Shown here piece after piece: positions 5,061 to 29,977 of a stretch of DNA of 36,087 nucleotides. This DNA is from Accumulibacter sp. (GTDB lineage Bacteria > Pseudomonadota > Gammaproteobacteria > Burkholderiales > Rhodocyclaceae). The position numbers and the translations under genes were made by a program. The stretch covers positions 1 to 36,087 of the forward strand of contig JAISAZ010000038.1 of the NCBI GenBank assembly GCA_031266435.1, in the 5' to 3' direction. The stretch's first letter is position 1, and each line of letters begins with the position of its first letter. Under the pieces are notes generated by a model. That model did not search any database, was not told the DNA's origin, and saw nothing but the letters and a program-made list of their open reading frames with translations.

Positions 5061-6163
5061 AAAACCTCCCGCCTCGCCTCTTTTCCACGTTTCTGTTGAT
5101 CTTGGCGTGCGCCTTCCCGGCATTCGCGCAAGACGCCGCCGGCCCCAAAGACGCCGTCGAAAAGCGCCTGCTCGCAATCTCCGCCGAACTGCGCTGCTTG
5201 GTCTGCCAGAACGAGTCGCTCGCGAGTTCCAACGCCGAGCTTGCCGCCGACCTGCGCGACCGGATCCGCGCGATGATTCTCGAAGGGAAGAGCGACGACG
5301 AAATCATGGACTTCATGAGCGACCGCTACGGCGACTTCATCCGTTACCGGCCCCGCCTCACGCGCCGCGCCGCGCTCCTGTGGTTCGGCCCCGTGCTCCT
5401 CTTCCTCGCGTCCTTCGCCGCTTTTGCCCTCCACCTGAAGCGCCGCGCCTCTACGCCGCCGGAGCGCGGTCTGACCACCGATGCCGATTTCGACGAAGTG
5501 GAAGACGCGCTTTTACGCCGCCTGAGTGAAGAGAGCCGTGAGGGCGGCGCGCGCGAATTTCCGGGGGAGAAGTGGGGAGCGCGAGGCGTCACGAGCTTGG
5601 CGCTCGCTCTTGTCATCCCGCTCGCCGCGACGGCCGTTTACCTGCGTCTCGGTACGCCGTCGGCGCTCGCGCCCGAAAGCGAAGCATCGCAGGGCGAGCG
5701 CATCGTTCGGGCGCTCGTCGGCGAACTCGAAGAAAAGCTCCGCGCGAACCCGGACGACGCGCAAAGCCGGATTCGGCTCGCGCGCATCTACAACGCGAGC
5801 GGCCGCTTCGGCGAAGCGGCGGAGGCCTTCGCCCAAAGCGGCGAAGCGATCGACGGCGACGCCGCCGCGCTCGTCGATTACGCCGAAGCGCTCCTCTTCC
5901 TCAACCGTGGGCGCGTCGACTCGAAAATCGACCGCCTGATCTCACGCGCGCTCGCGCGAGACCCCGACGCGCTCCGCGCGCTCGTCCTCGTCGGCGTATC
6001 CGCCGCCGAGCGCGGCGACCTCGGCGCGGCTGCCAATTTCTGGGAACACCTGCTCCCGTCGATCGACCCAAACTCGAAAGAAGCGCAAACGGTGAAAAAA
6101 GCGATCATCGAGGCGCGGCGGGGTCAGGGACCAGGAGACAGGAGACAGAGGACAGATCAGTGA
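5057..6163 (+). CDS. ccmH: CcmH-CcmI fusion, cytochrome c maturation
   Basis: The 368-residue product has a signal peptide (MKNLPPRLFSTFLLILACAF), the CcmH redox motif LRCLVCQN (cysteines about 47 and 50), a membrane segment near 105-127, a second membrane segment near 178-198 and a TPR-like C-terminal half that matches the CcmI role of holding apocytochrome c. The two-module arrangement is like E. coli CcmH. It is the last gene of the ccmFGH operon. The last residues (GQGPGDRRQRTDQ) and the TGA are encoded by the 7-nt repeat block that begins near 6112, so the natural C-terminus was probably slightly shorter, around EARR. Confidence 0.92.
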   Translation: MKNLPPRLFSTFLLILACAFPAFAQDAAGPKDAVEKRLLAISAELRCLVCQNESLASSNAELAADLRDRIRAMILEGKSDDEIMDFMSDRYGDFIRYRPRLTRRAALLWFGPVLLFLASFAAFALHLKRRASTPPERGLTTDADFDEVEDALLRRLSEESREGGAREFPGEKWGARGVTSLALALVIPLAATAVYLRLGTPSALAPESEASQGERIVRALVGELEEKLRANPDDAQSRIRLARIYNASGRFGEAAEAFAQSGEAIDGDAAALVDYAEALLFLNRGRVDSKIDRLISRALARDPDALRALVLVGVSAAERGDLGAAANFWEHLLPSIDPNSKEAQTVKKAIIEARRGQGPGDRRQRTDQ

Positions 6164-6380
6164 GCGGCGGCTTCGCAGGGTATAGGTTGGGCTGAGGAAC
6201 GAAGCCCAACGTTTCGCTTGCGCGAAGCGCAAGCCATTTCAGGGATCAGGGATCAGGAGACAGGAATCAGATCGGTCAACAGCGGCGTTGCCGCCGGAGT
6301 GACGAAACCCCACCCGGAATATCATCCCACCGTAGGGGCACGGAACGCCGTGCCCCTACGTGCCGATCTGATTCCCGAAC
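6112..6380. repeat. Heptamer/hairpin repeat mosaic at the ccmH/frdD convergent junction
   Basis: This fills the gap between the converging ccmH and frdD. In order: 7-nt repeats of the CAGGAGA/CAGAGGA type (6115-6160), a partial GAGCGGCGGCTTCGC hairpin, a GTTGGGCT...AGCCCAAC hairpin (6186-6210), a CTTGCGC-gaa-GCGCAAG hairpin (6217-6234), more 7-nt repeats (6239-6275), AGCGGCGTTGCCGCCGG, and a perfect 13-bp hairpin (6331-6360). The same components recur in other blocks of the window in different combinations. Confidence 0.85.
6331..6360. terminator. Perfect 13-bp GC hairpin, possible bidirectional terminator
   Basis: CGTAGGGGCACGG (6331-6343) pairs perfectly with CCGTGCCCCTACG (6348-6360) around AACG. 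Related GGGCACGGC/GCCGTGCCC hairpins occur at 11981-12000 and 26095-26114. It lies between the 3' ends of ccmH and frdD. There is no flanking U-run, so it would be a stabilising or REP-type hairpin rather than a classical intrinsic terminator. Confidence 0.5.
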
Positions 6381-6746
6381 CTAAAACCCTATCCTGAGCA
6401 ATACGAAGGCCGCAAGAAGCGTTCCGGCGAGCGCCGCGCCGTAGCAGAACAGCTTCGCCGTCGTTCCGGCGGGGACGCCGAATTCGTGCAGCGAGTGCAG
6501 AATACGGTGGAGCGAGTGCCAGAGAAAGAGGACGATGACGGCGAAAATAAAGCCTTTTCCCATGAAGTTGCGCGCGAAGCCCAGCATGTTCGGGTAGCGC
6601 ATCGTGTCGCTCGGGAGCAGGAATCCGAGCGGGACACAGAGTCCCGTGATGAAGATGAGCACCGGGCCGATGAGCGCGGCGAGGGTGCCGCCCGCGCCGA
6701 AAAGTCCCCAGAAAATTGGCGCGTTCGAGCGTTTGCGGATTTTCAT
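6381..6746 (-). CDS. frdD: Fumarate reductase membrane subunit D
   Basis: Small hydrophobic anchor of quinol:fumarate reductase. The 121-residue product has three membrane segments (about 20-42, 63-80, 97-118) and matches the E. coli FrdD pattern, including the NAPIFWGLFGAGG start region and a RILHSLHEFGV segment. The ATG at 6746 overlaps the frdC stop (ATGA, 6743-6746). It is the last gene of frdABCD. Together with FrdC it anchors the FrdAB head and forms the quinol site; E. coli-type FrdCD carry no haem, and no clear pair of haem-ligating histidines on FrdC/FrdD was assigned here. Confidence 0.9.
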   Translation of the reverse strand: MKIRKRSNAPIFWGLFGAGGTLAALIGPVLIFITGLCVPLGFLLPSDTMRYPNMLGFARNFMGKGFIFAVIVLFLWHSLHRILHSLHEFGVPAGTTAKLFCYGAALAGTLLAAFVLLRIGF

Positions 6747-7141
6747 GATAGCAGCCCTCTGATCGATGCGAACACGACGATCGAAGCGACGACCGAGGCG
6801 ACCAACCCGCCTTTGACGATTTCGCCGGCTTTGAGTTCTCTCCCGCAGACGCGGATCGTCGGGAGCGTGACCGGCATCAGGTGGAACCAGGTGTAGGTGT
6901 GGTAGACGACCGAAACGAGCAGGATCAGATGCACGACGAGTGCCGGGACGCTTTTCATGCATTCGAGCCAGGCGTTCCATGCCGCTTCGCCCTGCCCAAG
7001 CCGGACGAGACCGGCGAGAAGGATCAGCGCGTAGGCCAAAACGAAGAGCGCGGTACTTTCGTGGACGACGTATTCGACGAAGTAGGGATTCTTTTTCCAC
7101 CATCCGTCCATCGAACGGATGTAGGGTCGGCGTTTGCTCAT
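6743..7141 (-). CDS. frdC: Fumarate reductase membrane subunit C
   Basis: The 132-residue anchor subunit begins SKRRPYIRSMDGWWKKNPYF, close to the E. coli FrdC N-terminus, and has three membrane segments. The HEST segment places a glutamate at residue 28 where, by eye, E. coli FrdC has its quinone-site Glu29; the adjacent E. coli arginine is histidine here. The HTYTWFHLMP stretch matches the conserved second-helix region. The start (7141) overlaps the frdB stop (ATGA, 7138-7141) and its stop overlaps frdD, so the four genes are tightly coupled. Confidence 0.9.
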   Translation of the reverse strand: MSKRRPYIRSMDGWWKKNPYFVEYVVHESTALFVLAYALILLAGLVRLGQGEAAWNAWLECMKSVPALVVHLILLVSVVYHTYTWFHLMPVTLPTIRVCGRELKAGEIVKGGLVASVVASIVVFASIRGLLS

Positions 7142-9832: not shown

Positions 9833-9875
9833 CCAGGTATCAGGAATCAGGGATCAGGCATCAGGTATCAGATCA
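9833..9875. repeat. Heptamer repeat tract at the 3' end of yebC
   Basis: A run of 7-nt units (CAGGTAT, CAGGAAT, CAGGGAT, CAGGCAT, CAGGTAT, CAGATCA) reaches the yebC stop codon at 9873-9875, whose TGA is part of the final unit. This is the simplest block of the family: no central hairpin is attached. Confidence 0.8.
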
Positions 9876-10942: not shown

Positions 10943-11710
10943 ATGGCTGGTCTTGAGCCTTCTTCAAAAGTTTTCCGCTGCCCGAAGTGCGCCGCGCACT
11001 TTGAACCGCCGCTCGACGCGCGCTCCGAATGCCCGAAATGCGGAATATGGTTCCACAAATGGGAAAAAGAATCGAAGCGCCAGCGCGCAAGGCGCGGAGA
11101 AAAACCCGAAGAGCCGGGTTTCGACGAAATCGTCAAGGTACAGAAACTTCCCGAAAACCCCTTCGTCTTCTACGGTCAGGCGGCGACGCTGATCTTCATC
11201 TCGCTGTGGGGGCTTCTCCTCATCTCGAAGAATTACCACACCGACGAAATCGACGCGACCTTCATGCACTCGATCCTGCTTCCGTTTCACGAAGCCGGCC
11301 ATCTCATTTTTTACCCGCTCGGCGAATTCATGCGCATGCTCGGCGGAAGTTTTTTCCAGGTCGCGTTTCCCTTGGGCGTCGCGTACGCCTTCCATACGCG
11401 CAAGGCGGATTCCTTCGCCGCCGGCGTCTGCCTGTGGTGGGGAGGCGCAAGCCTGATCGACCTCTCGCCGTATATCTGGGACGCGCTGGACCCGGTACTC
11501 CCCCTCGCCGAGGGCGTCGAACACGACTGGGTTTATTTGCTGGGGTATTTCGGCATCACCGACCACGCGCATACGCTCTCGATGCTCGTCCACCACATCG
11601 GCGCCTTGCTGATGATCGTCGGCGTGCTCTGTTCTTCCTCTTTCCTTTACGAGACGGAAAAAATCAAGCGGTATCTGGCGGGCAGGGGACAGAAGACAGG
11701 AGACAGGTAA
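10943..11710 (+). CDS. Zinc-ribbon membrane protein with HEAGH motif, possible metallopeptidase
   Basis: An unrecognised 255-residue protein. The N-terminus carries a zinc ribbon, CPKC (13-16) and CPKC (30-33), then a basic linker (KESKRQRARRGEKPEEPG). From about residue 73 there are several membrane segments (TLIFISLWGLLLIS, the HEAGH region, SFFQVAFPLGVAYAF, FAAGVCLWWGGASLI, a final one near GALLMIVGVLCSSS). HEAGH at 116-120 lies at the start of a hydrophobic segment, as the zinc-binding HExxH does in site-2/M50 proteases; LIDLSPYIWD (161-170) could provide a third ligand. The ATG at 10943 follows GGAAGACGCC. The last residues (RGQKTGDR) and the TAA come from the repeat block beginning near 11688. 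Peptidase activity is inference; it could be a non-catalytic relative. Confidence 0.75.
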   Translation: MAGLEPSSKVFRCPKCAAHFEPPLDARSECPKCGIWFHKWEKESKRQRARRGEKPEEPGFDEIVKVQKLPENPFVFYGQAATLIFISLWGLLLISKNYHTDEIDATFMHSILLPFHEAGHLIFYPLGEFMRMLGGSFFQVAFPLGVAYAFHTRKADSFAAGVCLWWGGASLIDLSPYIWDALDPVLPLAEGVEHDWVYLLGYFGITDHAHTLSMLVHHIGALLMIVGVLCSSSFLYETEKIKRYLAGRGQKTGDR

Positions 11711-12115
11711 CAGGGATCAGATCGGTTAGCGGCGGCTTCGCCACCAATCAGGTATCAGGAATCAGATCAGTGAGCGGCGGCTTCGCCACCAATCAGGTAT
11801 CAGGAATCAGATGTCAGGTATCAGATCAGTGAGCGACGGCTTCGCCGCCGGAGAAAGATCGTTGAAACGCCGATCGGTTTTCATCTGATCCCTGATTCCT
11901 GACATCTGATGCCTGGTTCCTGATACGCGCCTGCGGAATCGTTGGGCATCGCTTCGCTCACCCCAACCTATGCCGCCGCTGGGCACGGCACGCCGTGCCC
12001 CTACGAGTCGGTCACCGACGGGAAAGATCGTTGAAATACCGATCGGTTTTATCTGATTACGGATTACTGAATACCATTCTGTCTTCTGTCCTCAGTCTTC
12101 TGTCCTCAGCAAAGC
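11688..12115. repeat. Heptamer/hairpin repeat mosaic at the HEAGH-protein/lysR convergent junction
   Basis: The block runs from the last codons of the HEAGH gene to the last codons of lysR. It has 7-nt repeats (11690-11720), then three successive units of TATCAGGAATCAGATCAGT followed by GAGCGGCGGCTTCGCCACC or a variant (11729-11850), the segment GGAGAAAGATCGTTGAAAC...CCGATCGGTTTT (11851-11883), inverted 7-nt repeats (11885-11925), a GTTGGGCATCGC...CCCCAACC hairpin, a perfect 9-bp GGGCACGGC/GCCGTGCCC hairpin (11981-12000), a second GATCGTTGAAATACCGATCGG copy and a final CTGTCCTCAGTCTTCTGTCCTC tract. Confidence 0.85.
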
Positions 12116-12985: not shown

Positions 12986-12989
12986 CGTA

Positions 12990-13013
12990 AGTGTTCGTCA
13001 AAAAGTAAAACCC
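12990..13013 (-). repeat. AAAAGT dyad repeat, copy 2
   Basis: The 24 bases are an exact inverted match to 2189-2212. The copy lacks the left AAAAAGTA arm; instead the flank reads CCCTGACCGGGTTGG. It sits 4 bp upstream of the lysR start codon in the divergent lysR/EamA control region. Confidence 0.7.
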
Positions 13014-13160
13014 TGACCGGGTTGGTTCGCCAAAGGGCGTCAGCCGCCGCCGCTCGCGCCTTGCCCTTCGTCAAAAACGAACGCAGGATTGTCGATAGAG
13101 CAATTGTCGCGCGACTTGCGACGATTCATCATTCATACTACGCTTTTTCCACGTTCGAAC

Positions 13161-16348: not shown

Positions 16349-16445
16349 AACGTTTCTCCTGAAAAACGGCGGCTCGAACGAAGGAAAATGGGAAAGCGCG
16401 TAGGGAAGGCTTTCTCACTCCTCGCCGCGACCGTCGCGGGTTGAA

Positions 16446-16512
16446 AAGTGAGCGCCGTTTACACCGAGCCTGAAACCGCCATTCGTCGACGGTCTTGCAA
16501 CGCTCCTCGGAT
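16446..16512 (-). promoter_or_regulatory. SAH riboswitch upstream of ahcY-metF
   Basis: On the minus strand the leader reads CCGAGGAGCGTTGCAAG (5' end at 16510), then a variable hairpin GACCGTCGACGAATGGCGGTTT, then CAGGCTCGG and finally AACGGCGCTCAC (to 16448). CCGAG pairs with CTCGG (P1), and GAGCG with CGCTC (pseudoknot with the 3' segment), which is the conserved layout of the SAH riboswitch known upstream of ahcY in beta- and gammaproteobacteria. In this class SAH binding turns the downstream gene on. The riboswitch starts a few bases after a TATAAT box. Confidence 0.93.
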
Positions 16513-16520
16513 AGTGCCGA

Positions 16521-16548: not shown

Positions 16549-16570
16549 CTGGTTTTTTCCAGGTTGAGCA

Positions 16571-19303: not shown

Positions 19304-19435
19304 TGTGTCCGCTCCATTGGGAATGACCGAAGCCAGGGCGCGCGCGCCGCGCGGTCCTTGGCATTTTCGTTCGAAAATTCCCTGTTAAATCCCCCGTTCT
19401 TGTGGCGTTGCCAACTCCGGGGTCTGAGCAGACGA
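19304..19435 (-). promoter_or_regulatory. Structured 5' leader of metK
   Basis: On the minus strand, four helices follow each other: GTCTG/CAGAC (19433-19422); an outer CCCCG/CGGGG stem (19422-19418 with 19396-19392) enclosing TGGC-aac-GCCA (19413-19403); a perfect ATTTTCG-aa-CGAAAAT hairpin (19378-19363); and a GC helix closed by GCCAAGG and CCCTGGC nearer the start codon. I do not recognise any published SAM riboswitch consensus. It may be an unclassified leader or simply chance in GC-rich DNA. Confidence 0.35.
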
Positions 19436-19584
19436 CGCTTTAGCAGCTTTATTCGGCTATTCGCGCGCTTTCTAAGGCTTTCGGGCTTTGAACGCCCTGC
19501 CGCCGCATCGCCGCGCGATTCTGGCGCCTCGCCTTGCGCGCCCGGAACCGAAGCGGGAGCTTCCACTCCCTTCCGCCCTGCAAG

Positions 19585-19613
19585 TTGTCCTGTTAACTCG
19601 GCGGATGGATAAT
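19585..19613 (+). promoter_or_regulatory. Probable promoter of lpxL
   Basis: TTGTCC (19585-19590) and GATAAT (19608-19613) are 17 bp apart, matching 4 of 6 and 5 of 6 of the sigma-70 consensus. This would give a leader of about 45 nt with a GGAGGA ribosome binding site before the TTG start at 19665. Confidence 0.5.
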
Positions 19614-19664
19614 TATAGGTTTTGAACCAATGCGGGTCAAACGCTTGGCATCCCGGAGGATCGC

Positions 19665-20549
19665 TTGATACGTCTTTTTCGTTTTCTCAGCCACTTTCCA
19701 CTGTGCGTGCTGCACGCTTTGGGCGCAGTGACGGGCTATCTGACCTGGCTTGCCTCGCCGACCTACCGCCGCCACCTGCGCGAAAACAGCGCGCTCGCGC
19801 TCGGCGCGCAAGGAGCGCGGAGAATCCGCTCGGCGGTCGTCTCCCACGCGGGAAAGTCGACGCTTGAATTGCCCAAAATCTGGCTGCGCCCACTCGACGA
19901 GGTCTTGAGCCATATCCGGCACGTCGAGGGTGCCGAAGTCAGCGACGCGGCGTGGCGCGCGGGCAAGGGAGTCATTTATTTGACGCCGCACCTCGGTTGC
20001 TTTGAAATCACCGCGCAATACCTCTCTCGGCGGATGCCGCTGACGGTTCTCTACCGCCCTCCCCGACAGGCCTGGTTGCAAACCTTGATGGAGACCGGGC
20101 GGACGCGCCCGCAAATGTCGCTCGCGTCCGCCGACCTTCGCGGTGTTCGCGCGCTGATGAAAGCGCTGAAGCGCAACGAAGCGGTCGGCCTTCTCCCCGA
20201 CCAGGCGCCGAAGGCCGGCGAAGGGCGATGGATCGATTTTTTCGGAAAACCGGCCTATACGATGACCCTGGCGGCGAGGCTGTCCGAGAGCGGAGCGAGC
20301 ATCGTTCTGGTGTGGGCGAAACGCCTGCCTCGCGGGCAAGGCTTCGAACTCCGTTTTCAATCGCCGTCGCGCCCGATTTGCGGAACGACCGAAGAACGCG
20401 CGCGAAAAATCAACCGCGAAATCGAAAAGCTCATCCTTCAATGCCCCGAACAATATTTGTGGGGCTACAACCGCTACAAGCGTTCGCGCGGAGCCGGGCA
20501 GGAAACAGGAGACAGAGGTCAGGGACAGATGACAGAGGACAGAAGATAG
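19665..20549 (+). CDS. lpxL: Lipid A biosynthesis lauroyl/myristoyl acyltransferase (LpxL/LpxM family), copy 1
   Basis: Adds a secondary acyl chain to Kdo2-lipid IVA at the inner membrane. The 294-residue product has an N-terminal hydrophobic anchor, the acyltransferase H-x4-E motif in TPHLGCFE, the LPDQAPKAGEG block and the CPEQYLWGYNRYK signature near the C-terminus, all typical of LpxL. The start is a TTG at 19665 with GGAGGA four bases upstream. The true protein should end near NRYKRSRG; the last residues (QETGDRGQGQMTEDRR) and the stop come from the heptamer repeat block. It is divergent from metK. A second, diverged paralogue lies at 34811-35695. Confidence 0.93.
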   Translation: MIRLFRFLSHFPLCVLHALGAVTGYLTWLASPTYRRHLRENSALALGAQGARRIRSAVVSHAGKSTLELPKIWLRPLDEVLSHIRHVEGAEVSDAAWRAGKGVIYLTPHLGCFEITAQYLSRRMPLTVLYRPPRQAWLQTLMETGRTRPQMSLASADLRGVRALMKALKRNEAVGLLPDQAPKAGEGRWIDFFGKPAYTMTLAARLSESGASIVLVWAKRLPRGQGFELRFQSPSRPICGTTEERARKINREIEKLILQCPEQYLWGYNRYKRSRGAGQETGDRGQGQMTEDRR

Positions 20550-20700
20550 AGGACAGAGCGGCCTTCGGCCTTTGTAGTCAGGCATCAGTAATCCGAGGGA
20601 GGCAATTACGCGACATCTGACGACTGAAAACTGGTCACGAAGCGAGCGTCAGCGAGCGCTCTGTCCTCTGTCCTCAGTCTTCAGTCCTCTGTAACGCCCG
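20497..20700. repeat. Heptamer repeat block at the lpxL/ugd convergent junction
   Basis: 7-nt repeats of the CAGGAGA/CAGAGGA/CAGAAGA type run from inside the 3' end of lpxL (20500-20555), continue through a CGGCCTTCGGCC core and CAGGCATCAGTAATC units, and return as inverted repeats CTGTCCTCTGTCCTCAGTCTTCAGTCCTCTG (20661-20691) inside the 3' end of ugd. The two arms can pair with one another over most of their length. Confidence 0.85.
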
Positions 20701-22014: not shown

Positions 22015-22062
22015 TTTTCGATCCCTTGAATCATTTCCATCCACACACGCGAAAACGGCGGG

Positions 22063-23901
22063 TCAGGCGTCCGTCTCTTCGACCACGCCCACGCCGCCGC
22101 CGCCGTCCGCTTCGCCCGCTTCGTCGGAAAAGCGTCGGGCGTGCAAGCGGGTGTAATGCCCGTTTTTCGCGATCAGTTCGGCGTGCGTCCCCTGCTCGAC
22201 GATGCGTCCCTGATCCATGACGAGAATCCGGTCGGCCGATTCGATCGTCGAGAGGCGGTGGGCGATGACGAGCGTCGTGCGCCCGTCCATGACCTTTTCC
22301 AGCGCCGCCTGGATGTGCCGCTCGGACTCGGTGTCGAGCGCGGAGGTCGCCTCGTCGAGGATCAGGACAGGGGCGTTCTTGAGAAGCGCCCGTGCAATCG
22401 CCAGACGCTGGCGCTGCCCGCCCGAAAGCATGACGCCGTTCTCGCCGACCTTCGTCTCGAAGCCTTCGGGCAGATTATCGATGAATTCTTTTGCAAACGC
22501 GTCGTCCGCTGCCTGCTGCACCGAAGCCCTCGGCGCGTCCGCCAGATCGCCGTAGGCGATATTGTTCAGGACGGTATCGTTGAACAGGTTGACCTGCTGC
22601 GTGACGAGCGCAATCTGCCGGCGCAGGTTCGCAAGGCGGTAACGCTCGACGGGAACGCCGTCGAGCAGGATTTCACCGTTCTTGTGCGGGTAAAAGCGCG
22701 GAATCAGGCTCGCCAGCGTCGATTTTCCGCTGCCCGAACGCCCGACGAGCGCGACCATCTGGCCGGGTTCGATCGAAAGACTGATGTCGTCGAGCACTTT
22801 TTTCGCCGACCCCGGATAGTGGAAACTCAGATTCCTTATTTCCAGCCGTCCTTCGATACGCTCGCGTTCGACCGTCCCGCTGTCGTCTTCGGGCGTCTGG
22901 TCGAGTTGCTCGAAAATGCTTTCCGCGCCTGCCAGGCCTTTCTGGATCGTCGCGCTGACCTCCGATAATTGACGAATCGGCTTCGGCAAAAGGCCCGCCA
23001 TCGTGATATACGCGACCAGATCGCCAATCGTCGCGTCGCCGCGCAGGAGCAAGACCAGATACAAGAGAGCCGCCATGCCGGTGTAGACGACGATCTGGAG
23101 CGCGGGCGTATAGACCGCGGAAATCCGCGACATCTTGAGGTTCCTTTTCGTATTCTCGGCACTGACATCGAGAAAACGCCGACGCTCGTAGGTTTCACCG
23201 CCGAAGCTGCGCACGACGCGATAGCTCTGAATCGTCTCGGACGCGACGTGCGTCACCTCACCCATCGCCGACTGAATCTTCCAGCTCTGCTTGCGGAATT
23301 TCTTGTTGGCGGTCGAGACCATCAGCGAAATGACCGGGAGAATCGCCAGCATGACAAGTGTCAGCTTCCAGTTCATGTAAATGAGCGCGACGAACAGGAA
23401 GAATACCGTCATCCCTTCCCGGATGATGATCTTGATCGCGTCGGTCGCCGCGCCGGTCACCATCGTCACGTTATACGTGATCCGCGAAATCATCTGCCCC
23501 GAATTGTGATGGTCGAAGTAGGGGTTCGGAAGCGTCAGGAGGTTGTTGAAAAGCGCAACGCGCAGGTCGTGTACCAGCGAGAGCGACACCTTGGAAAGGT
23601 AGTAGTTTCCGAAAAACGAACCGATACCCTGGAGAAGCGCGATCACGACGATCACGAACGGGACAGCCTCCGGGAAACGCAGATTTCGGATGAACTCAAA
23701 TGGAATATTTTCGAAGAACTTCACGCCGGGGTCGACAAGGCTGTCGACGAAATACTTGAGGATGCCACCGAGCATCGGCTGCGTCGTCGCAAACAGCATA
23801 TACCCCAAAAGGCTCAGCGCGAACGGCGCGCTGTAAGGCAGGACGTAGCGAAGCAGGCGCAGATACACCGCAAAACTCGACGGGCGGTTGGAATCGGTCA
23901 T
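22063..23901 (-). CDS. msbA: Lipid A export ABC transporter MsbA
   Basis: A half-size ABC exporter that flips lipid A-core across the inner membrane. The 612-residue product has an N-terminal six-helix membrane domain with the MsbA-typical segments NPYFDHHNSGQMISRITYN and SYRVVRSFGGE, then the ATPase domain: Walker A GRSGSGKST, Q-loop VTQQVNLFNDTV, signature MLSGGQRQR, Walker B VLILDEATSALD and H-loop IAHRLSTIE. The C-terminal tail is unusually rich in Gly/Glu/Asp (EADGGGGVGVVEETDA). The start at 23901 (MTDSNRPSS) is chosen over the upstream ATG at 23994 because the extra residues lack family likeness and reach into a repeat. Confidence 0.95.
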   Translation of the reverse strand: MTDSNRPSSFAVYLRLLRYVLPYSAPFALSLLGYMLFATTQPMLGGILKYFVDSLVDPGVKFFENIPFEFIRNLRFPEAVPFVIVVIALLQGIGSFFGNYYLSKVSLSLVHDLRVALFNNLLTLPNPYFDHHNSGQMISRITYNVTMVTGAATDAIKIIIREGMTVFFLFVALIYMNWKLTLVMLAILPVISLMVSTANKKFRKQSWKIQSAMGEVTHVASETIQSYRVVRSFGGETYERRRFLDVSAENTKRNLKMSRISAVYTPALQIVVYTGMAALLYLVLLLRGDATIGDLVAYITMAGLLPKPIRQLSEVSATIQKGLAGAESIFEQLDQTPEDDSGTVERERIEGRLEIRNLSFHYPGSAKKVLDDISLSIEPGQMVALVGRSGSGKSTLASLIPRFYPHKNGEILLDGVPVERYRLANLRRQIALVTQQVNLFNDTVLNNIAYGDLADAPRASVQQAADDAFAKEFIDNLPEGFETKVGENGVMLSGGQRQRLAIARALLKNAPVLILDEATSALDTESERHIQAALEKVMDGRTTLVIAHRLSTIESADRILVMDQGRIVEQGTHAELIAKNGHYTRLHARRFSDEAGEADGGGGVGVVEETDA

Positions 23902-23977
23902 TTGGCGGCAGGATGAAGGGCGAGAATACGAATTGTAACAGCGGAAGAACGCGAAATTGACCGAAAAACGCGTTTGA

Positions 23978-24083
23978 TGCCTTTTCCAGTTCATTCATGC
24001 CGAGAAGACGAGCCGCAGACAGTACAGGTAGTACGGCAAGGCGAAGTCGACAAAGGAAGGGATGAACTGGAAATGGAATGATG
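23978..24083. repeat. Dispersed ~105 bp element with inverted ends, copy 2
   Basis: Read on the minus strand this is almost identical to 1686-1792: CATTCCATTTCCAGTTCATC, the CCTTTGTCGACTTCGCC core, CTGTCTGCGGCTCGTCTTCT and GAATGAACTGGAAAAGGCA. It is in opposite orientation to copy 1, in the gap between the methyltransferase gene and msbA. Confidence 0.8.
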
Positions 24084-24144
24084 CCTCAAAAGAAGGCGCC
24101 CGTCGGCCCCGGCTTGCCGCCAAACGCCCAGAGTTTGACCTTCG

Positions 24145-25062
24145 TCAAGCTTCCCTTCGGCAATACGGGTTCCTCGGAAGCTCGAGACAATCCCATCCCG
24201 ATGCTTTGAATGCGTCCACAGTCGAAGCGTCGAACGCGGTTTTCAGGAAGGCGATCTGCAAGAGGTCGTAATCCTGAATCCTCAGCTTGCAAAGCGTATC
24301 CCTCCGCTTGATCGACTTTATCATCGACGCAAAAAGCCGCGACTTTTTTTCATCCGCCGGCTCGAATTCAACGCCTTTTTCATAAAAGTCGTTGACCCCC
24401 CTGATCAACAGAGACGGCAAATCCAGTGCCATCGCGATTTTTACGGCATCCCTGCGAGAAATCTTGAACACGTAATTCCCGACCTCTTCATACTCCGCGT
24501 CGACCAGACCGTCGCATTCGGAAATCCTTTTCCCCCTTGCGATACTCTTTATGTTTTTAGCAATTTTGTAAATGACTCTGTCACTTGAAAACTTGTCGTT
24601 GGGCTCTGCCAGAAACACCCCGCATTTTGCCACGCGCAGCATTTCGTAAAGCGCAAGCCAGGGGCGCGGGAAATGGTGAAACGACTCCTTGCAAAAGACA
24701 TAATCGAATTCGCCGTCCCGAAACGGCATCGATTCGGCGTTTACAACCCTGTACTCCTCGATGAATCCTCTTTTTTTCGATTCCGCCAAGAGTGTTTCGG
24801 AGATGTCCGTGGCGAGAACATTCTTAAATCCATGGCTCCTGATTGCGATGGAATCCAGCCCCCAGCGTCCGTCGCCTATCGTCATCCATGAACGGTCCTT
24901 GCACTTCATGTGTTCGAGAAATCTGTAATACCTTTCGTGCCGCCAGTAGTCCGCGGTAGATTTATCGAACCAGGTTTCAGCAGTTGCAGCCCGCTCCGGC
25001 ACCTCCATATAGGCGGCAAAATGCGCATCGTGTTTTTGATAGCTCTCTCTGATAATGTCCAT
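24145..25062 (-). CDS. SAM-dependent methyltransferase (class I), probably acquired
   Basis: A 305-residue methyltransferase-like protein. Motif I is TIGDGRWGLDS (about 61-71), followed by an acidic residue in NVLATDIS (about 86), then the motif VVNAESMPFRDGEFDYVFC with ESFHHFPRPW, as in Methyltransf_11 enzymes acting on small molecules or glycans. The C-terminal third is lysine-rich and unassigned. AAA and ATA codons and lower GC set it apart from the neighbours (visible in 24250-25060), suggesting transfer. It lies between msbA and a lipopolysaccharide-kinase-like gene, so a role in surface polysaccharide is plausible but not shown. The ATG at 25062 begins MDIIRESYQK. Confidence 0.8.
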   Translation of the reverse strand: MDIIRESYQKHDAHFAAYMEVPERAATAETWFDKSTADYWRHERYYRFLEHMKCKDRSWMTIGDGRWGLDSIAIRSHGFKNVLATDISETLLAESKKRGFIEEYRVVNAESMPFRDGEFDYVFCKESFHHFPRPWLALYEMLRVAKCGVFLAEPNDKFSSDRVIYKIAKNIKSIARGKRISECDGLVDAEYEEVGNYVFKISRRDAVKIAMALDLPSLLIRGVNDFYEKGVEFEPADEKKSRLFASMIKSIKRRDTLCKLRIQDYDLLQIAFLKTAFDASTVDAFKASGWDCLELPRNPYCRREA

Positions 25063-25298
25063 ACCATACTCTGTAGTATGTTAATGAAGTTCCCGCGCAT
25101 GCCTCGCGGATCGCCCCGATCTCATGAAGGAAAATTTCACCGGCCGTTTTTGTGTCCATCCGCCCAGCATTTTCTGCATCTCCGTAAAAAAACATATACA
25201 TCGCGGGACTCGGCACAAACGCCGCGCTACAAGACGTAACGCAACAGACACATCGCTGAACCCGACGTGCCGTTAGGATATGTCATTTAGCCGATGGT

Positions 25299-25967
25299 AT
25301 GAATCGAAAGGATACTAGACGGATTGTAACAGCGCAAGAACTGGAAAATTGGCTGAAACGCGGAGACGTGCTCGAACACGACTCGCGCGGTCCCAAAGTC
25401 GTGGCGATGAAGAAGGCCCCCGACGACTTGGAGACCGTGTTTCTGAAAATTTTTTACACTCGTCGTCGCCCCTGGCTCGCGCGCCTGTTTCCACCCGCCG
25501 CCCGCTTCGCCAAAAACACCGGGATTCTCAAAAAGGCAGGGGTTCCCACCCCTGAAGTCGTCGAAACCTTCTGGATCGACCCGTCCGCCGGTCTTTCGGC
25601 CTGCCTCTACCGCCCTTTGCCCGGATGCACCCTGGAAGCACTGTTGAGACGTGAGCCTTCGGAAATCGACGCGCTTTTGCCGAAATTGGCAGGATTCATC
25701 CGCCGGCTTCACCGCCATCGCATCTATTTCCGCTCGCTCCACACCGGGAACATCGTTCTGATGCCCGACGGCAACTTCGGCCTGATCGACATTCTCGACC
25801 TCAAACAACTCCTCTTCCCTTTGGGGCCTTGGCGTGTCCGGCGAAATTTCCAGCATATGAAACACCGCCTTGATCGGGAAAATCAGACCGCGTTCCCGTT
25901 CGAGGAGCTTTTGCGTCTGTACCGTGAGAGAACGGATTTTGGCAGCGATGAGAAAGACGAATCGTAG
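25299..25967 (+). CDS. Lipopolysaccharide kinase (Kdo/WaaP)-like protein
   Basis: A 222-residue protein of the eukaryotic-like LPS kinase group. Visible landmarks are TVFLKIFYTRRRPW (likely nucleotide-binding lysine about 50), AGVPTPEVVETF, a hinge YRPLPGCTLEALL, the catalytic-loop-like FRSLHTGNIVLMPDG (about 144-158) and LIDILDLK (Asp164 as metal ligand). The usual HRD is replaced by a RSLHTGN arrangement; several LPS kinases vary here, so activity is likely but unproven. The ATG at 25299 has only a weak ribosome binding site. It is divergent from the methyltransferase and convergent with the FecR gene, the gap to which is packed with repeats. Confidence 0.8.
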   Translation: MNRKDTRRIVTAQELENWLKRGDVLEHDSRGPKVVAMKKAPDDLETVFLKIFYTRRRPWLARLFPPAARFAKNTGILKKAGVPTPEVVETFWIDPSAGLSACLYRPLPGCTLEALLRREPSEIDALLPKLAGFIRRLHRHRIYFRSLHTGNIVLMPDGNFGLIDILDLKQLLFPLGPWRVRRNFQHMKHRLDRENQTAFPFEELLRLYRERTDFGSDEKDES

Positions 25968-25994
25968 TAAAGGAATCTCTGATTCCTTTGCAAG

Positions 25995-26714
25995 TGTCGG
26001 CGGGTTTTCAAGCATTCCAAACCCCTCCTATCCTCCCCTTATCAGGGGAGGAACCACGTTGTTATACGCCCGCGCGTCGTCGATTGGCGCGTAGGGGCAC
26101 GGCGCGCCGTGCCCAGCCAAGTATCAGGAATCAGAGGAGAGGGATCAGATCAGTTAGCGGCGGCGTTGCCGCCGTATGTGCGAAAACCATTCCACCACGC
26201 ATAGGTTGGGGTGAGCGCAGCGATGCCCAACATACGGCAAATGACCGCGCGAAAACCTACCGAACAAAGTAATGTGGCAGGGGTTCCCCACTTTCCCCCT
26301 GACAAGGGGGAAATGAAGGGGGTTTCGGGGTTTCGGGGTTTCGGGGTTTCGGCAAGCGTCAGAGCGTTTTCATGCCTCTTTCAAACCGCCCTGTCCCATC
26401 ATTCATGCGCATGCGGAATCGTTAGGCGTAGCAATGCTCAGCCCAACTTATACCGCCGAGAACGGAGCGGAAACGCTATAGGTTGGGCTGAGCGCAGCGA
26501 GAGCCACAACGTTTCCGGGGCGGCATGAAAAAGAGCCTACCGCCGGCTTCCCGCCGGAGAAAAAGCGACAAAATACCGATCGGTTTTCTTCTGTCTCCTG
26601 TCTCCTGACATCTGTCTCCTGATACGCGCCTGCGGAATCGTTGGGCGTAGCAATGCGTAGCCCAAGCTATACCGCCGATGGGACACGCCGTGCGCTTGCA
26701 AAATCGTCTCCCTT
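25995..26714. repeat. Long repeat mosaic at the kinase/FecR-protein convergent junction
   Basis: This 720-bp block has no gene. In order it holds: CCTCCCCT-tatc-AGGGGAGG hairpin (26033-26052), GGGCACGGC/GCCGTGCCC hairpin (26095-26114), 7-nt repeats (26118-26150), GTTAGCGGCGGCGTTGCCGCCG, TAGGTTGGGGTGAGCGCAGC hairpin element (26202-26232), CCCCCT-gac-AAGGGGG (26295-26310), the G-rich octamer array (26318-26352), further CCCAACTTA/TAGGTTGGG elements (26420-26515), CTGTCTCCTGTCTCCTGAC units (26590-26620) and another CGTTGGGCGTAGCAATGCG element (26639-26670). Confidence 0.85.
26318..26352 (+). repeat. Octamer array (GGGGTTTC)n with G-quadruplex potential
   Basis: Four G-tracts (26318-26322, 26327-26330, 26335-26338, 26343-26346) are each separated by TTTC, giving four tandem GGGGTTTC units. 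This fits the G4-N4-G4-N4-G4-N4-G4 pattern of a stable intramolecular G-quadruplex on the plus strand. Confidence 0.85.
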
Positions 26715-28418
26715 TCAAGGCTTCGTTATGGTTCCGGCGCCGAAACCTACGTCGTAGCTACCGCCGACGTAGTCGATACCGTAATCCACCGGTACGAGGC
26801 CACCCGAGTGGACGATGTTCAGGTCGACATTGGGATTGCCTTTTATCCAGGTGGTCGCGTAGGTCGTCCCATCAAGCGCCACACCATTGAATGTATTGGC
26901 ACCGCCTCCTTGCGAGAAGTTGTCTACTATAAAACCGCCCGGTGACATCACCGTCCCGACGCCGCCGATAAAATCTACAGCGAGCGGTGCGGTTATCGAG
27001 CTTGCGGAATCGGTCCCCAAGCCGCTACCGTTCAAGGTCGCATTCGAGATATTGCCGCTTGTCAGGTTGACGTCGAAGGTGAAGGTGCCGGAAAAAGTGT
27101 TGAGGCCGTAGGACGTATACAGATTACCCGAAACCGATCCGGTCGTCAGCATCGGCGGCATCACGCCCCACGTACCACTCAAGGTACCAGTATCTATCCC
27201 ACCCCAGCCGGAAGAATTGATATCGTAGCCGCCGGACACCGACGAACCCAGAACGCCGGGAGTCGGCGAAGTGAAGGTCAAAGTCGTTGCGTCAGTGGAA
27301 ACAATAGGAGGAACATATGCCACAGACCCCGGAGCGTACGAAATCGCGTGCCCGGTAAAGCCGCTGATGACGGTGGTCCCCGCAGTCATTGTCCCACTCC
27401 CGCCGACCACGTCGAATTGTTCGTAAACAGAAAGAGGAGTCACCACCAAGCCGTGCATTTCCGCACTCGTGACGGCACCGGTACCGAGGTTTACGTTGAA
27501 GGCGAAATCCGCCGAATACACCGGCGTGTTGCTTCCCCCGGAAGCCAGCAAGCCCGATACGTAGGTCGACCCGAGCGGCGCCGGACTGGGTCCCAGCGAA
27601 CCTCCGGGGAGTAGCGGCGAGAGCGGCAGCGTTTTGAGCGGCGTATCCGGCGACGCCGTTCCGCTGTCCGCGTTGACGTACGCGAGCGGGGGGTCGGTCG
27701 GAATGCGGACGACCATTTCGGGTTCGGGTGCGGCGGCGGCGACGCCGCGTCCGCCGAGGAAGGCGAGGTCGCGCCCGAGTTCGCGCCGGTCTTCGGGCTG
27801 GATCGGTTCGGTACGCAGCGGGTCGTCGGGGAGGGTAATCTTCTGTCCGCCCGGAACGCGGATGTCGTTGACGTAGACTTCACGCGTCGTGTTCTCGACA
27901 TACACGGTCGTCACGCCGTTCATCGAGCGCATACTGATGATCGTCCCACGAATCCCGACGTGCGCTTCAGGGGTCGTGACCTTGAACCCCGACGGGTTCA
28001 TTTCGACGACGCGTCCCGTGACGACGCGCGCGACGCCCTGCATCAGGTGAACGTCGAAGACCGGCTTTGATCCGCTGTCGGCGTAGTCGCGTAAATCCAG
28101 ACTCGTATTGCTCCCGACCGCCACCGTGCTGTCGTCGTTGAACAGGATGCGCGCGCGTCCCGTCGCGTCAGTCGTGAGTGTGTCGGTCACTTCGACCGGC
28201 GAATGAACGGCAAGTGGAATCGTCTTCCCCTCGCGCGTGACAAACGCCCCCGGTACGACGCGGATGACTTGGCCGATCTCAGCCGCGATCACCGCGCCAC
28301 TGGAAAGAAAGAGGCAGACCGCAAACGACATCGCGAATCCAGAAGAAGCGAGACGAAAGTTTGGAACGCGATCGACGAAACGATGAACGATGTGGGGGAC
28401 GAAACGACGCCAAGCCAT
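26715..28418 (-). CDS. Secreted FecR-domain protein with C-terminal beta-rich repeats
   Basis: A 567-residue exported protein. The N-terminus has a long signal peptide (hydrophobic MSFAVCLFLSSGAVIAA, about 30-46). Next comes a FecR domain (about 50-165): RARILFNDDSTVAVGSNTSL and VTTPEAHVGIRGT are classic. A proline-rich linker follows (PLSPLLPGGSLGPSPAP), then two related beta-rich stretches beginning FAFNVNLGTGAVTSAEMHG and FTFDVNLTSGNISNATLNG, resembling the barrel domains of transferrin-binding-like surface proteins. The ATG at 28418 has GGGAGG six bases upstream and is the best start. The frame remains open upstream through the (TTCC)n tract, but those residues (PSFL repeats) are probably untranslated. 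Free FecR proteins without sensor partners are often envelope proteins; the role is unknown. Confidence 0.85.
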   Translation of the reverse strand: MAWRRFVPHIVHRFVDRVPNFRLASSGFAMSFAVCLFLSSGAVIAAEIGQVIRVVPGAFVTREGKTIPLAVHSPVEVTDTLTTDATGRARILFNDDSTVAVGSNTSLDLRDYADSGSKPVFDVHLMQGVARVVTGRVVEMNPSGFKVTTPEAHVGIRGTIISMRSMNGVTTVYVENTTREVYVNDIRVPGGQKITLPDDPLRTEPIQPEDRRELGRDLAFLGGRGVAAAAPEPEMVVRIPTDPPLAYVNADSGTASPDTPLKTLPLSPLLPGGSLGPSPAPLGSTYVSGLLASGGSNTPVYSADFAFNVNLGTGAVTSAEMHGLVVTPLSVYEQFDVVGGSGTMTAGTTVISGFTGHAISYAPGSVAYVPPIVSTDATTLTFTSPTPGVLGSSVSGGYDINSSGWGGIDTGTLSGTWGVMPPMLTTGSVSGNLYTSYGLNTFSGTFTFDVNLTSGNISNATLNGSGLGTDSASSITAPLAVDFIGGVGTVMSPGGFIVDNFSQGGGANTFNGVALDGTTYATTWIKGNPNVDLNIVHSGGLVPVDYGIDYVGGSYDVGFGAGTITKP

Positions 28419-28553
28419 GACAAGCCTCCCGAAGACGGATGGAGAACGACGAAGGAAACGAAAGGGACGAAGAAGATGCGTCGAAAACGCGGAACGGCGC
28501 GGATTTATGACACCGCGCCGGGTTTTCGACCGGCGGGAAAAAGCGGAAAAGTG

Positions 28554-28573
28554 CGCCGCGCGTCCGCGCGGCG
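28554..28573. promoter_or_regulatory. Perfect 9-bp GC hairpin between the GGAA tract and the FecR gene
   Basis: CGCCGCGCG (28554-28562) and CGCGCGGCG (28565-28573) are exact complements around TC. Lying in the upstream region of the FecR gene just after the tetranucleotide tract (minus-strand direction), it could form in the leader RNA. Confidence 0.4.
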
Positions 28574-28590
28574 GAGTCTTTAGAGAATCA

Positions 28591-28645
28591 GGAAGGAAGG
28601 AAGGAAGGAAGGAAGGAAGGAAGGAAGGAAGGAAGGAAGGAAGGA
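28591..28645. repeat. Tetranucleotide microsatellite (GGAA)13.75
   Basis: Uninterrupted GGAA units run from 28591 to 28645 (TTCC on the strand of the FecR gene), about 173 bp upstream of its start codon. Pure tetranucleotide tracts of this length are slippage-prone. Confidence 0.95.
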
Positions 28646-28681
28646 GCAAAAACCGTGCCTGAAGCGCTCGTGCACGTCATG

Positions 28682-28753
28682 AAATTGCTACAATTCGTAG
28701 AATTCGTACCGTCCGCAGAATTCACACGATTTGCACGATTCGCACAACGCGCG
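28682..28753. repeat. Degenerate 9-nt tandem repeat
   Basis: Eight successive 9-mers: AAATTGCTA, CAATTCGTA, GAATTCGTA, CCGTCCGCA, GAATTCACA, CGATTTGCA, CGATTCGCA, CAACGCGCG. The consensus is close to CGATTCGCA. It lies 37 bp from the GGAA tract, upstream of the FecR gene. Confidence 0.7.
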
Positions 28754-28997
28754 CGTACAGTCTCCCCGCCGCTCATTCTTGCCGGCTCGTCCTTTTCGGA
28801 TAAGAAATACCGCCCTGCCCTATCCACCCTCGATTCTCCCCTTTATCGAGCGTTCCGTTCCCTGATTCCAAGCAACAACACAGACTTGCAAGAGAAGAAT
28901 AGCAAATATTTCACGGCGGTGAAATAAAAAAATACGGAAATCCACCTCTCACCTTTATGAATGACCACAAGGGTATGTTCCAGCGATGACCTCCGGT

Positions 28998-29180
28998 GGG
29001 GCACGGCGTGCCTATCAGGTATCAGGAAACAGGAGACAGGAATCAGATCAGTGACCTGCGGCTTCGCCGCCGGAGAAAGATCGTTGAAACACCGATCGGT
29101 TTTCGTCTGATCCCTGATCACTGATTACAAAGGCCGAAGGCCGCTCTGTCTTCTGTCCTCTGTCTTCTGTCCTCTGTTTC
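28998..29180. repeat. Heptamer/hairpin repeat block between the FecR gene and pduO
   Basis: The block contains TATCAGGTATCAGGAAACAGG units, CAGATCAGTGACC, GCGGCTTCGCCGCCGGAGAA, AGATCGTTGAAACACCGATCGGTTTTC and inverted units CTGATCCCTGATCACTGATT, ending with CTGTCTTCTGTCCTCTGTC tracts. It is one of few blocks located between divergent genes. Confidence 0.85.
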
Positions 29181-29257
29181 GCGGAAATGCAAAAAACCGC
29201 TACGCGACCGCGCTTATCTAGGATAATTGCCTTTTCCCCACCTCAAGGAGAACGGAC

Positions 29258-29824
29258 ATGGGCAATCGTCTTTCAAAGATAGTCACGCGGACCGGCGACG
29301 CGGGAACGACCGGCTTGGGCGACGGCTCGCGGATCGCCAAGGATTCGCTGCGCATCGACGTCATCGGTGAAGTCGACGAACTCAATTCTTTCATCGGCGT
29401 CCTGCTCGCCGAAGAACTCTCCGGCAATATTCACGAGCTTCTGCTCGCCGTGCAGCACGATCTTTTCGACATCGGCGGCGAGGTCTGCATCCCGGTCGGT
29501 TACACGGCGATCAAGGAAGACGCGATCGAACGCCTCGAAGCGGCCGTCGAAGAGATCAACGAGACGCTGACGCCGCTCAAGGAATTCATCCTTCCAGGCG
29601 GGGTGCGCCCCGCCGCGCTCGCGCACTTGGCGCGCTCGGTCTGCCGCCGCGTCGAGCGCCGCATCGTCCGTCTGGCGAACGCCGAGCCTGTTTCCGAAAA
29701 CATCCGAAAGTATTTCAACCGCCTGTCGGATCTGCTTTTCGTTCTCGGTCGGGCGCTCAACAAGGCGGGGGGACGCGGCGACGTGCCTTGGGCGCACGCA
29801 CGGGTGAAAAAGCCGCGCGATTGA
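29258..29824 (+). CDS. pduO: Cob(I)alamin adenosyltransferase, PduO type
   Basis: Transfers adenosyl from ATP to cob(I)alamin, making coenzyme B12. The 188-residue product has TRTGDAGTTGLGDGSR (ATP binding), RIDVIGEVDELNSFIG, LFDIGGE, FILPGG, the RSVCRRVERR helix and NRLSDLLFVLGRALN, all conserved in the PduO family, and normal length. The ATG at 29258 is preceded by AAGGAGAACGGAC. No other B12 genes are near. It converges on aroG through a repeat block. Confidence 0.96.
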   Translation: MGNRLSKIVTRTGDAGTTGLGDGSRIAKDSLRIDVIGEVDELNSFIGVLLAEELSGNIHELLLAVQHDLFDIGGEVCIPVGYTAIKEDAIERLEAAVEEINETLTPLKEFILPGGVRPAALAHLARSVCRRVERRIVRLANAEPVSENIRKYFNRLSDLLFVLGRALNKAGGRGDVPWAHARVKKPRD

Positions 29825-29836
29825 TTTTCCGGGGAG

Positions 29837-29977
29837 CGCGGTACGCCTTATCAGGTATCAGGAATCAGGAGACAGGAATCAGATCAATTACCGGCGGCTT
29901 CGCCGCCGGAGAAAGATCGTTGAAACACCGATCGGTTTTCTTCTGTCTCCTGTCTCCTGACATCTGTCTCCTGAAAC
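29837..29977. repeat. Heptamer/hairpin repeat block at the pduO/aroG convergent junction
   Basis: A compact, complete example of the composite: GCGGTACGCC, CAGGTATCAGGAATCAGGAG units, CAGATCAATTACCG, a GCGGCTTCGCCGC hairpin (29895-29907), GGAGAAAGATCGTTGAAACA, CCGATCGGTTTTC, and inverted units CTGTCTCCTGTCTCCTGAC up to the stop codon of aroG. Left and right heptamer arms are mutually complementary. Confidence 0.88.

Follow-up and report, generated by a model that had tools for sequence, protein, structure and literature searches.

In Xanthomonas (GGGAATC) and Nostoc (GGGGA(C/T)T), tandem heptamers are described as mostly intergenic, with inverted pairs in 70-75 cases, at a mean distance of 28 nt to the 5' ORF and 160 nt to the next; 16% are found between convergent ORFs, versus 7-8% between divergent ones (PMC4692102). 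For REPs, the usual location is between unidirectional or convergent ORFs, and their GTAG termini often provide the stop codon (PMC3733652). A bias of location is already on record in both accounts. In Geobacter metallireducens, four classes of mostly paired sites include a class 3 of five tandem MTYCTGA heptamers (16 sequences aligned), proposed as putative regulator binding sites (PMC2700814), and the TAACTGA repeats of the Beggiatoaceae form intergenic heptamer arrays with a patchy distribution across phyla (PMC4679880).

The elements described here resemble the Xanthomonas type in their tandem 7-nt units, their inverted pairs and their position close to where the upstream ORF ends. As far as the account in PMC4692102 goes, they differ from the Xanthomonas and Nostoc heptamers in the sequence of the unit, the scarcity of GGG tracts, a set repertoire of hairpin interiors and the stop codons inside or touching the arms; their sites are common to a sister species, whereas the longest Xanthomonas repeats lie at different genes in two species. 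From the GTAG- and CGTC-tagged REPs of PMC3733652 they are set apart by their heptamer arms, their larger composite build and a genome in which no RAYT was found. The CTGA core of Geobacter class 3 resembles the reverse complement of the type A units found here (PMC2700814). The Beggiatoaceae repeats are reported to lie mostly just upstream of start codons and to be nearly all direct (PMC4679880), unlike the present elements.

Architecture of the elements and the convergent pairs of the window

The elements consist of inward-pointing arms of a 7-nt unit, CAGRNNN, flanking a hairpin interior, and are composites of about 120-190 nt. Neighbouring arms at most 200 nt apart were oriented +- in 96 cases, -- in 42, ++ in 35 and -+ in 10. 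With regard to the terminal inverted repeats of MITEs, inverted arms are present and their unit number is variable. In a sample of 891 kb, one third of the genome (at most the first 20 kb of 60 odd-numbered contigs, plus the window), 269 runs of at least three units were found versus 1 in one first-order Markov resample, and a 30-nt core had 57 matches genome-wide (at most three mismatches) versus none for the reversed pattern, so the repeats are not a product of chance. Runs of at least four units comprise 937 units; among the six commonest only CAGGGAT (106) holds a GGG, the others having GG at most. Judged from these unit counts, G-tracts of three or more, which could form G-quadruplexes as in the Xanthomonas type, are few. 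One palindrome of the mosaic starts with GTAG, but the heptamer elements do not. Read in any of the three frames, a tandem 7-nt unit gives one and the same heptapeptide, and, CAGATGA apart, the commonest units encode no stop, so that a gene may extend into an arm whatever its frame.

In the window, by which we mean the whole stretch of 36,087 nucleotides, the five non-overlapping convergent gene pairs of the first-pass annotation are present, and Pfam matches support CcmH, frdD, LysR, LpxL, Ugd, the APH kinase, FecR and PduO; the HEAGH protein had no Pfam match. Repeats occur in all five gaps. The gap boundaries first assigned were wrong: ccmH, the HEAGH gene, lysR, lpxL and ugd end inside the repeats, not ahead of them, and the ORF-to-ORF gaps had to be corrected for this reason (Table 1). 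The kinase/FecR gap is the weakest of the five, as neither stop codon is touched by its repeats. EamA/metF is a sixth convergent pair; its genes share 140 bp, and it is free of repeats. Of the blocks that had been set aside as exceptions to this placement, the one at yebC also marks a gene 3' end, whereas the one at 28998 does lie in a divergent gap. A search of the window against Rfam gave no match at the repeats, the sole match being a SAH riboswitch elsewhere.

Table 1. Corrected convergent gaps and repeat features of the window
Feature	Position	Strand	Remark
ccmH/frdD gap, ORF to ORF	6164-6380		
HEAGH/lysR gap, ORF to ORF	11711-12091		
lpxL/ugd gap, ORF to ORF	20550-20673		
kinase/FecR gap, ORF to ORF	25968-26714		
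pduO/aroG gap, ORF to ORF	29825-29977		
Sense heptamer arm within ccmH 3' end	6125..6159	+	ccmH stop ends 6163
Second heptamer arm with hairpin, ccmH/frdD gap; then GTAGGGGCACGG palindrome	6240..6274	+	
Heptamer remnant, yebC 3' end, tandem gap	9834..9875	+	longer element at same place in G166
Heptamer arm within 3' end of HEAGH-protein gene	11683..11724	+	stop ends 11710
Complete type A element: direct heptamers, hairpin, GAAAGATCGTTGAAACGCCGATCGGTTTT, inverted heptamers	11794..11922	+	
Type B heptamers holding lysR stop	12077..12107	-	lysR gene end 12092
Type B element	20499..20691	+	arms contain lpxL stop (20549) and ugd stop (20674); interior inverted in G166
GGGGCACGG palindrome, short heptamers and GCGGCGGCGTTGCCGCCG hairpin, kinase/FecR gap	26082..26177	+	
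Type A right half (diverged core and inverted heptamers), kinase/FecR gap	26551..26625	+	
Type A element joined to type B heptamers, divergent FecR/pduO gap	29009..29177	+	
Complete type A element, pduO/aroG gap	29850..29973	+	arm 4 nt from aroG stop, ~26 nt from pduO stop
Partial heptamers and diverged type A core, near contig end	35859..35934	+	

Gene junctions and stop codons across the genome

Genes in the sample were called with a hexamer model of our own, by which starts are unreliable and stops sound, and gaps of at least 30 bp were classed. Heptamers were present in 35 of the 64 gaps between convergent genes, in 45 of the 282 between tandem genes and in 19 of the 82 between divergent genes. 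The proposal that every convergent junction is filled therefore holds for the window and fails for the genome sample: the full score in the window was a lucky draw, and the bias is weaker genome-wide. The excess itself was borne out by the permutation test that had been called for, applied to this one-third sample. With controls for gap length and promoter space, the expected convergent number was 10.8, rising to 21.5 when 100 bp per promoter was excluded; the observed number, 34, was reached in 0 of 2000 permutations in either version. Convergent occupancy (55%) also exceeds the 29% expected from two independent stops, which indicates that something further acts. Native flank in occupied convergent gaps had a median of 14 bp, versus 89 bp in the 29 unoccupied ones, a comparison that left out 18 convergent pairs with gaps below 30 bp, whose inclusion would bring the unoccupied median to about 40. 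The other palindromes of the mosaic show the same location bias. Contigs often break at heptamer repeats, which hides occupancy at contig ends; 36 of the 269 runs fell in neither a classed gap nor a gene.

Sense arms start within -60 to +300 of the end of the stop codon at 118 of 772 gene 3' ends in the sample. In 30 of these the arm starts at -1 to +4, and in 42 it starts earlier, with the stop inside the arm; among the 76 arms from -1 onward 39% contact the stop, where uniform placement predicts 3.6% at 0 to 4. When gene calls were dispensed with and a stop at the end of an open frame of 80 or more codons was sought 0-6 nt ahead of the arm, contact was found for 37 of 222 arms in this genome (G000) and 19 of 98 in its sister species (G166), versus about 2.5-5% at shifted positions. 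The suggested bias toward transcript ends is thus real by gap counts, by the controls and by stop contact. No preference for a stop codon was seen (TGA 54, TAA 13 and TAG 12 at elements; 520, 148 and 104 overall).

The arms abut gene ends and sometimes replace the gene's own stop. Relative to orthologues, the G000 protein ended in 4 to 20 unaligned residues in the nine usable of ten comparisons (seven genes), the one set aside being ccmH versus G167, which aligned partially; where the arm lies at the stop, lengths agreed within one residue in 4/4. Among element-free genes, unaligned C-termini of at least 5 residues occurred in 32% of 112 comparisons with G171 and 25% of 16 with G167.

Of the junctions compared between G000 and G166, 11 were occupied in both, 1 in G166 only, 0 in G000 only and 77 in neither. 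The sister species thus shares 11 of the 12 occupied junctions, and the odd one falls short of a clean empty site. Judged by eye, 8 of the 11 shared junctions have different interiors in the two genomes, one of them through inversion. G166 was equated with a deposited MAG by 100% identity over 119 nt at a contig end. No occupied junction was shared with G171 or G167 in eight comparisons (seven junctions), and the type A core, counted 137 times in G000 and 125 times in G166, is missing from nearly all congeners (1 in G168, 0 in 25 others). The few comparable sites revealed no recognisable target-site duplication.

Stop contact at 0-6 nt extends to other groups. In a collection scan for heptamer-armed stretches (80 of 98 used, groups assigned from record titles) it was found for 15 of 54 arms in records titled Betaproteobacteria other than G000 and G166, 9 of 26 in Alphaproteobacteria, 9 of 34 in Gemmatimonadota and 9 of 28 in other groups, versus about 2.5-5% at shifted positions, the control value being 4% for Alphaproteobacteria and Gemmatimonadota. 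The strict inverted pattern occurred in 1 of 369 genomes, the present one alone, and is therefore rare despite the 98 stretches of the scan.

Origin of the bias and its significance

One explanation is tolerance alone: elements land anywhere and survive only in promoter-free 3' flanks. The rise in the expected convergent count on excluding promoters agrees with this, as does the median distance of 150 nt between block edges and starts, but neither permutation version attained the observed number, and the arms cluster at the stop codon instead of being scattered through the spacer. A comparison is provided by M, a mobile element about 106 bp long that this genome also carries. It occupies 5 of 64 convergent, 14 of 282 tandem and 10 of 82 divergent junctions, and 8 of 38 copies are convergent versus 13% of net spacer bases (p 0.12), so it has no significant convergent bias, although the difference between it and type A is modest (p 0.02-0.05); its left and right ends agree in 8/8 copies, under a search pattern that required T[GC]A at both ends. 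Tolerance alone explains the bias badly, and we consider it unlikely. Alternatively, elements might be retained for a function at the 3' end, as terminators or as shields of the mRNA. On either strand, a strong fold is predicted for two complete elements (about -64 kcal/mol, z -6.9 to -8.4), and the sites are kept in both sister species though their content changes; a third block folds weakly (z about -1.6), however, and 46 of the 96 elements, examined for pairing of their arms, gave no clear sign of covariation. Among the 24 of type A, all 500 permutations of the arms paired better than the true partners; among the 22 of type B, whose arms are correlated in unit make-up (0.86), 49 of 500 permutations equalled or beat the true partners. 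Protection of the mRNA is possible. As to bidirectional termination, terminator-like hairpins are equally frequent at occupied and repeat-free convergent ends (18/70 versus 10/38), and a pattern scan of 16100-36087 of the window gave 24 versus 27.2 in shuffles. Occupied tandem ends are richer (14/45 versus 32/204, p 0.02), but their gaps are longer, so that more sequence is scanned and matches are favoured. Termination has no clear support here. No element is present in 29 of 64 convergent gaps, nor in the 115 gaps sampled in G171. On the whole, a selected 3'-end function appears quite unlikely.

Movement by a RAYT transposase, as for REPs, would fit the shared location habit (PMC3733652) and the palindrome with GTAG. 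The REP description there, as far as it goes, has no heptamer arms, and the Y1_Tnp profile (PF01797) gave 0 matches in the 95.8% complete genome, the control being positive in 5 of 14 genomes; RAYT was rejected as the mover, and a REP-type origin is very improbable. Nor did the analysis turn up any other transposase or mobilising agent. The CsrA protein binds GGA motifs. Sense arms rich in purines, with GGA in many units, could suggest CsrA-type binding arrays in 3' UTRs, but a search of the 95.8% complete genome found no CsrA (PF02599), and this candidate was rejected as extremely improbable.

Among the readings offered at the outset, targeting to 3' ends fits best. By a slight balance of probability, we favour non-coding repeats seeded at gene 3' ends and then remodelled in place. 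In the common ancestor of G000 and G166, elements would have been seeded at the stop codon or slightly upstream, by a few codons, replacing native spacer and, in some genes, the native stop. The sites would then have remained stable, with their interiors being exchanged, inverted, shortened or lengthened in place. Seeding itself was probably directed to gene ends, although the occupied divergent gaps imply that gene ends are not required. Turnover may be driven by recombination between the arms of different copies, or by template switching, as the simplest route; this is suggested by the 11 junctions judged by eye. The convergent bias would in good part follow from a convergent gap having two gene ends and no promoter. 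More speculatively, and on balance rather unlikely, the heptamer-armed elements of several phyla may be placed exactly at stops by an integration or templated insertion that reads gene ends, with the arms as exchange handles through which the cargo hairpin at a fixed site is replaced time and again.

If truly placed at stops, the elements would form a class of bacterial repeats by which protein C-termini and gene 3' ends are rewritten while the genes survive. Such placement would also be relevant to the clustering of heptamer repeats at the ends of genes in unrelated bacteria, which has been reported for Xanthomonas. With the pair of G000 and G166, the stability of sites can be tested directly against the turnover of their cargo.

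Convergent gaps and the elements that occupy them

The repeats are built from arms, arrays of 7-nt CAG-units that face inward (within 200 nt, plus followed by minus in 96 cases and minus by plus in 10), and could be divided by their interior into two types. The interior of type A (~52 nt) is the hairpin CGGCGGCTTCGCCGCCGG followed by AAAGATCGTTGAAACACCGATCGGTTTT, and that of type B (~96-110 nt) runs from CTCGCTGCGCTCGCTT through GGCCGAAGGCC, with CAGAGGA and CAGAAGA as arm units. The first-pass annotation had placed one family of such repeats, together with GC hairpins, in each of the window's five gaps between non-overlapping convergent genes. The gaps and the gene order are as described, but five of the ten genes stop within the repeats, not ahead of them, and the occupancy of five out of five does not extend to the 2.66 Mb genome of 121 contigs (G000), where 35 of the 64 convergent gaps in our sample that measure 30 bp or more are occupied. 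The corresponding numbers are 45/282 for tandem and 19/82 for divergent gaps (Fisher, convergent versus tandem 7e-10, versus divergent 1e-4). Heptamer runs, defined as at least three CAG[GAT]NNN units, numbered 269 in the 891,246 sampled bases, against 1 in a single Markov resample, and 27 of them lie mostly inside called genes.

The proposed bias toward convergent gaps is upheld in this wider count: none of 2000 permutations reached the 34 heptamer-bearing convergent gaps observed, whether 10.8 are expected from net spacer length or 21.5 after 100 bp is reserved for each promoter. For all repeat blocks, heptamers and others, with promoter space excluded, 42 were observed versus 34.5 expected (6/2000 permutations). 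The other palindromes of the mosaic (GTAGGGGCACGG.., TATAGGTTGGG.. and CCCCTCCCC..) show the same bias, occurring in 13, 19 and 10 of 64 convergent and in 18, 25 and 10 of 282 tandem gaps, respectively. In the sister species G166 the occupied gaps were 16/33 convergent, 18/111 tandem and 6/37 divergent, which is not independent of G000 because the sites are common to both; in the sample of the congener G171 none was occupied (0/19, 0/70 and 0/26).

A separate repeat family, M (101-107 bp, ATTCC..GGAAT), served as an internal control. It behaves as a mobile element: its flanking T[GC]A triplets agree in 8/8 copies found with both ends, and each sister genome was compared at the orthologous gaps of the other, where about six copies found in one are missing. 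In some copies the TGA doubles as the stop of a gene. Among the 64 convergent, 282 tandem and 82 divergent junctions, M was found at 5, 14 and 10, and type A cores at 20, 21 and 5, respectively. By copies, 8/38 M are convergent versus 13% of net spacer (p 0.12), and 24/57 type A (p 7e-8 against spacer share). The contrast between the families is modest, with p 0.02 to 0.05 for convergent and 0.003 to 0.02 for divergent junctions.

Features of the window and of loci outside it (L-numbers)
Feature	Location	Strand	Observation
M copies, roughly 106-bp palindrome	window 1688-1790, 23977-24079		absent from the orthologous gaps of G166
Further family of repeats, with the 25-nt perfect inverted pair AGGGTTTTACTTTTTGACGAACACT	window 2046-2214, 12990-13014		parts of 2046-2214 match several G166 places
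EamA/metF tail-to-tail overlap	window 14074-14213		140 bp in G000 and G166, 116 bp in G167 and G171; no repeat
SAH riboswitch (Rfam RF01057, 50.9 bits)	window 16443-16514	-	unremarkable; precedes the S-adenosylhomocysteine hydrolase gene
Element at the lpxL/ugd convergent gap	window 20499-20691		interior inverted versus G166 (L114), between the same gene ends
pduO/aroG convergent gap			same core in G000 and G166
Shared junction	L048:14067		same core in G000 and G166
Shared junction	L029:12639		same core in G000 and G166
Tandem site	L018:8421		element immediately after TGA in G000; spacer kept in G171
Junction with repeats alone in G000	L020:10035-10546		two small genes in G166 (L127), by eye presumably a toxin-antitoxin pair
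Convergent gap	L064 3027-3713		by its sequence, a putative RNase P RNA gene

Arms at stop codons

A sharper pattern than gap type is that sense arms, which read along the gene, start at the stop codon. In the G000 sample a sense arm starts within -60 to +300 of the final base of the stop at 118 of the 772 gene 3' ends: 42 before -1, 30 at -1 to +4, 7 at +5 to +14 and 39 further away, whereas uniform placement in the spacer would put 3.6% of the starts at 0 to 4. Nine of the 42 early arms start at -4, and there a first CTGA-type unit supplies the stop with its TGA; in 29 genes the arm begins more than 10 nt before the stop. Native flank, summed over both sides, has a median of 14 bp in the 35 occupied convergent gaps versus 89 bp in the 29 unoccupied ones of at least 30 bp (~40 when 18 smaller-gap pairs are added).

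In comparisons with orthologues from the congeners G171 and G167, the last 4 to 20 G000 residues were unaligned in the nine usable of ten rows (seven genes), the orthologue having its own ending and its own stop, and in four rows with the arm at the stop (three genes) the protein lengths were equal within one residue. Control rows lacking elements also had at least five unaligned residues (32% of 112 for G171, 25% of 16 for G167), so that the ending of any one gene is weak evidence; the direct evidence for altered gene ends is the heptamer-coded tails themselves.

Stop contact accounts for the convergent bias in part. An arm abuts 39/128 gene ends in convergent and 29/282 in tandem gaps, on both sides in 12/64 convergent gaps. 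Two independent stops at the tandem rate predict 29% convergent occupancy versus the 55% observed, and in gaps of at least 100 bp 47% versus 65% (p 0.007). Roles in termination and shielding, also proposed from the window, are possible but not well supported. Good folding on both strands was seen for two complete elements (z -6.9 to -8.4) and not for the block at 29015 (z about -1.6). Terminator-like hairpins are equally common at occupied and repeat-free convergent ends (18/70 and 10/38); at tandem ends they are more frequent when the gap is occupied (14/45) than when it is not (32/204, p 0.02), the occupied gaps being longer. In type A the arms of one element pair worse than arms from different elements, and in type B slightly better, not significantly.

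The location bias itself is not new, given precedents in earlier accounts: REPs are described as lying for the most part between unidirectional and convergent ORFs, with GTAG termini that often supply the stop codon (PMC3733652); Xanthomonas GGGAATC heptamers form inverted pairs, have a mean distance of 28 nt from the 5' ORF and are found between convergent (16%) and divergent ORFs (7-8%) (PMC4692102); and Geobacter has MTYCTGA sites of five units (PMC2700814). The open-access literature searched, mostly as listings, yielded no report of heptamer-armed elements that take the place of a stop codon, of interiors exchanged at fixed sites or of cross-phylum stop contact.

Sister genomes and other phyla

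Type A cores were counted in 28 genomes of the genus: 137 in G000, 125 in G166, 1 in G168 and 0 in the 25 other congeners. G166 probably corresponds to the deposited MAG Accumulibacter sp. isolate Gx485_bin129, since one of its contig ends matches a contig there without mismatch over 119 nt. Eighty-nine orthologous junctions could be read in G000 and G166; both genomes are occupied at 11, G166 alone at 1, G000 alone at 0 and neither at 77, and none of the G171/G167 counterparts of occupied junctions is occupied (eight comparisons, seven junctions). Sites common to G000 and G166 and empty in G171/G167 imply that the readable sites predate the G000/G166 split; most simply, they would be younger than the divergence from G167 and G171. 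Judged by eye, the interiors differ at 8 of the 11 shared junctions; the other three keep the same core, and two of these gained or lost units. The opposite interior at lpxL/ugd would represent an inversion or replacement in place. From shared sites with differing interiors, the simplest expectation is that copies exchange interiors through their arms.

The strict inverted pattern is rare, being found in 1 of 369 genomes of the class sample, G000 itself. In the species-genome collection, 98 stretches matched a pattern of two inverted CAGGNAT-unit pairs; by record title they fall into Gemmatimonadota, Alpha-, Beta- and Gammaproteobacteria, Acidobacteriota, Gemmataceae and further groups. The 80 of these that were examined held 81 matches, 7 at edges; convergent gaps are in slight excess among the other 74 (48 tandem, 17 convergent, 9 divergent; p 0.01 from gap number, 0.04 from length). 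Stop contact outside the genus is strong and independent of our gene calls: in the same 80 stretches a stop that ends an open frame of 80 or more codons precedes the arm by 0 to 6 nt for 9/26 arms in Alphaproteobacteria, 9/34 in Gemmatimonadota, 15/54 in Betaproteobacteria besides the probable G166 record and 9/28 in the remaining groups (0/2 in that G166 record), against 50/1440 shifted control positions. The type A core occurs in 2 of the 80 stretches, both from the probable G166 record, so that what the stretches have in common is the architecture of the arms rather than the interior.
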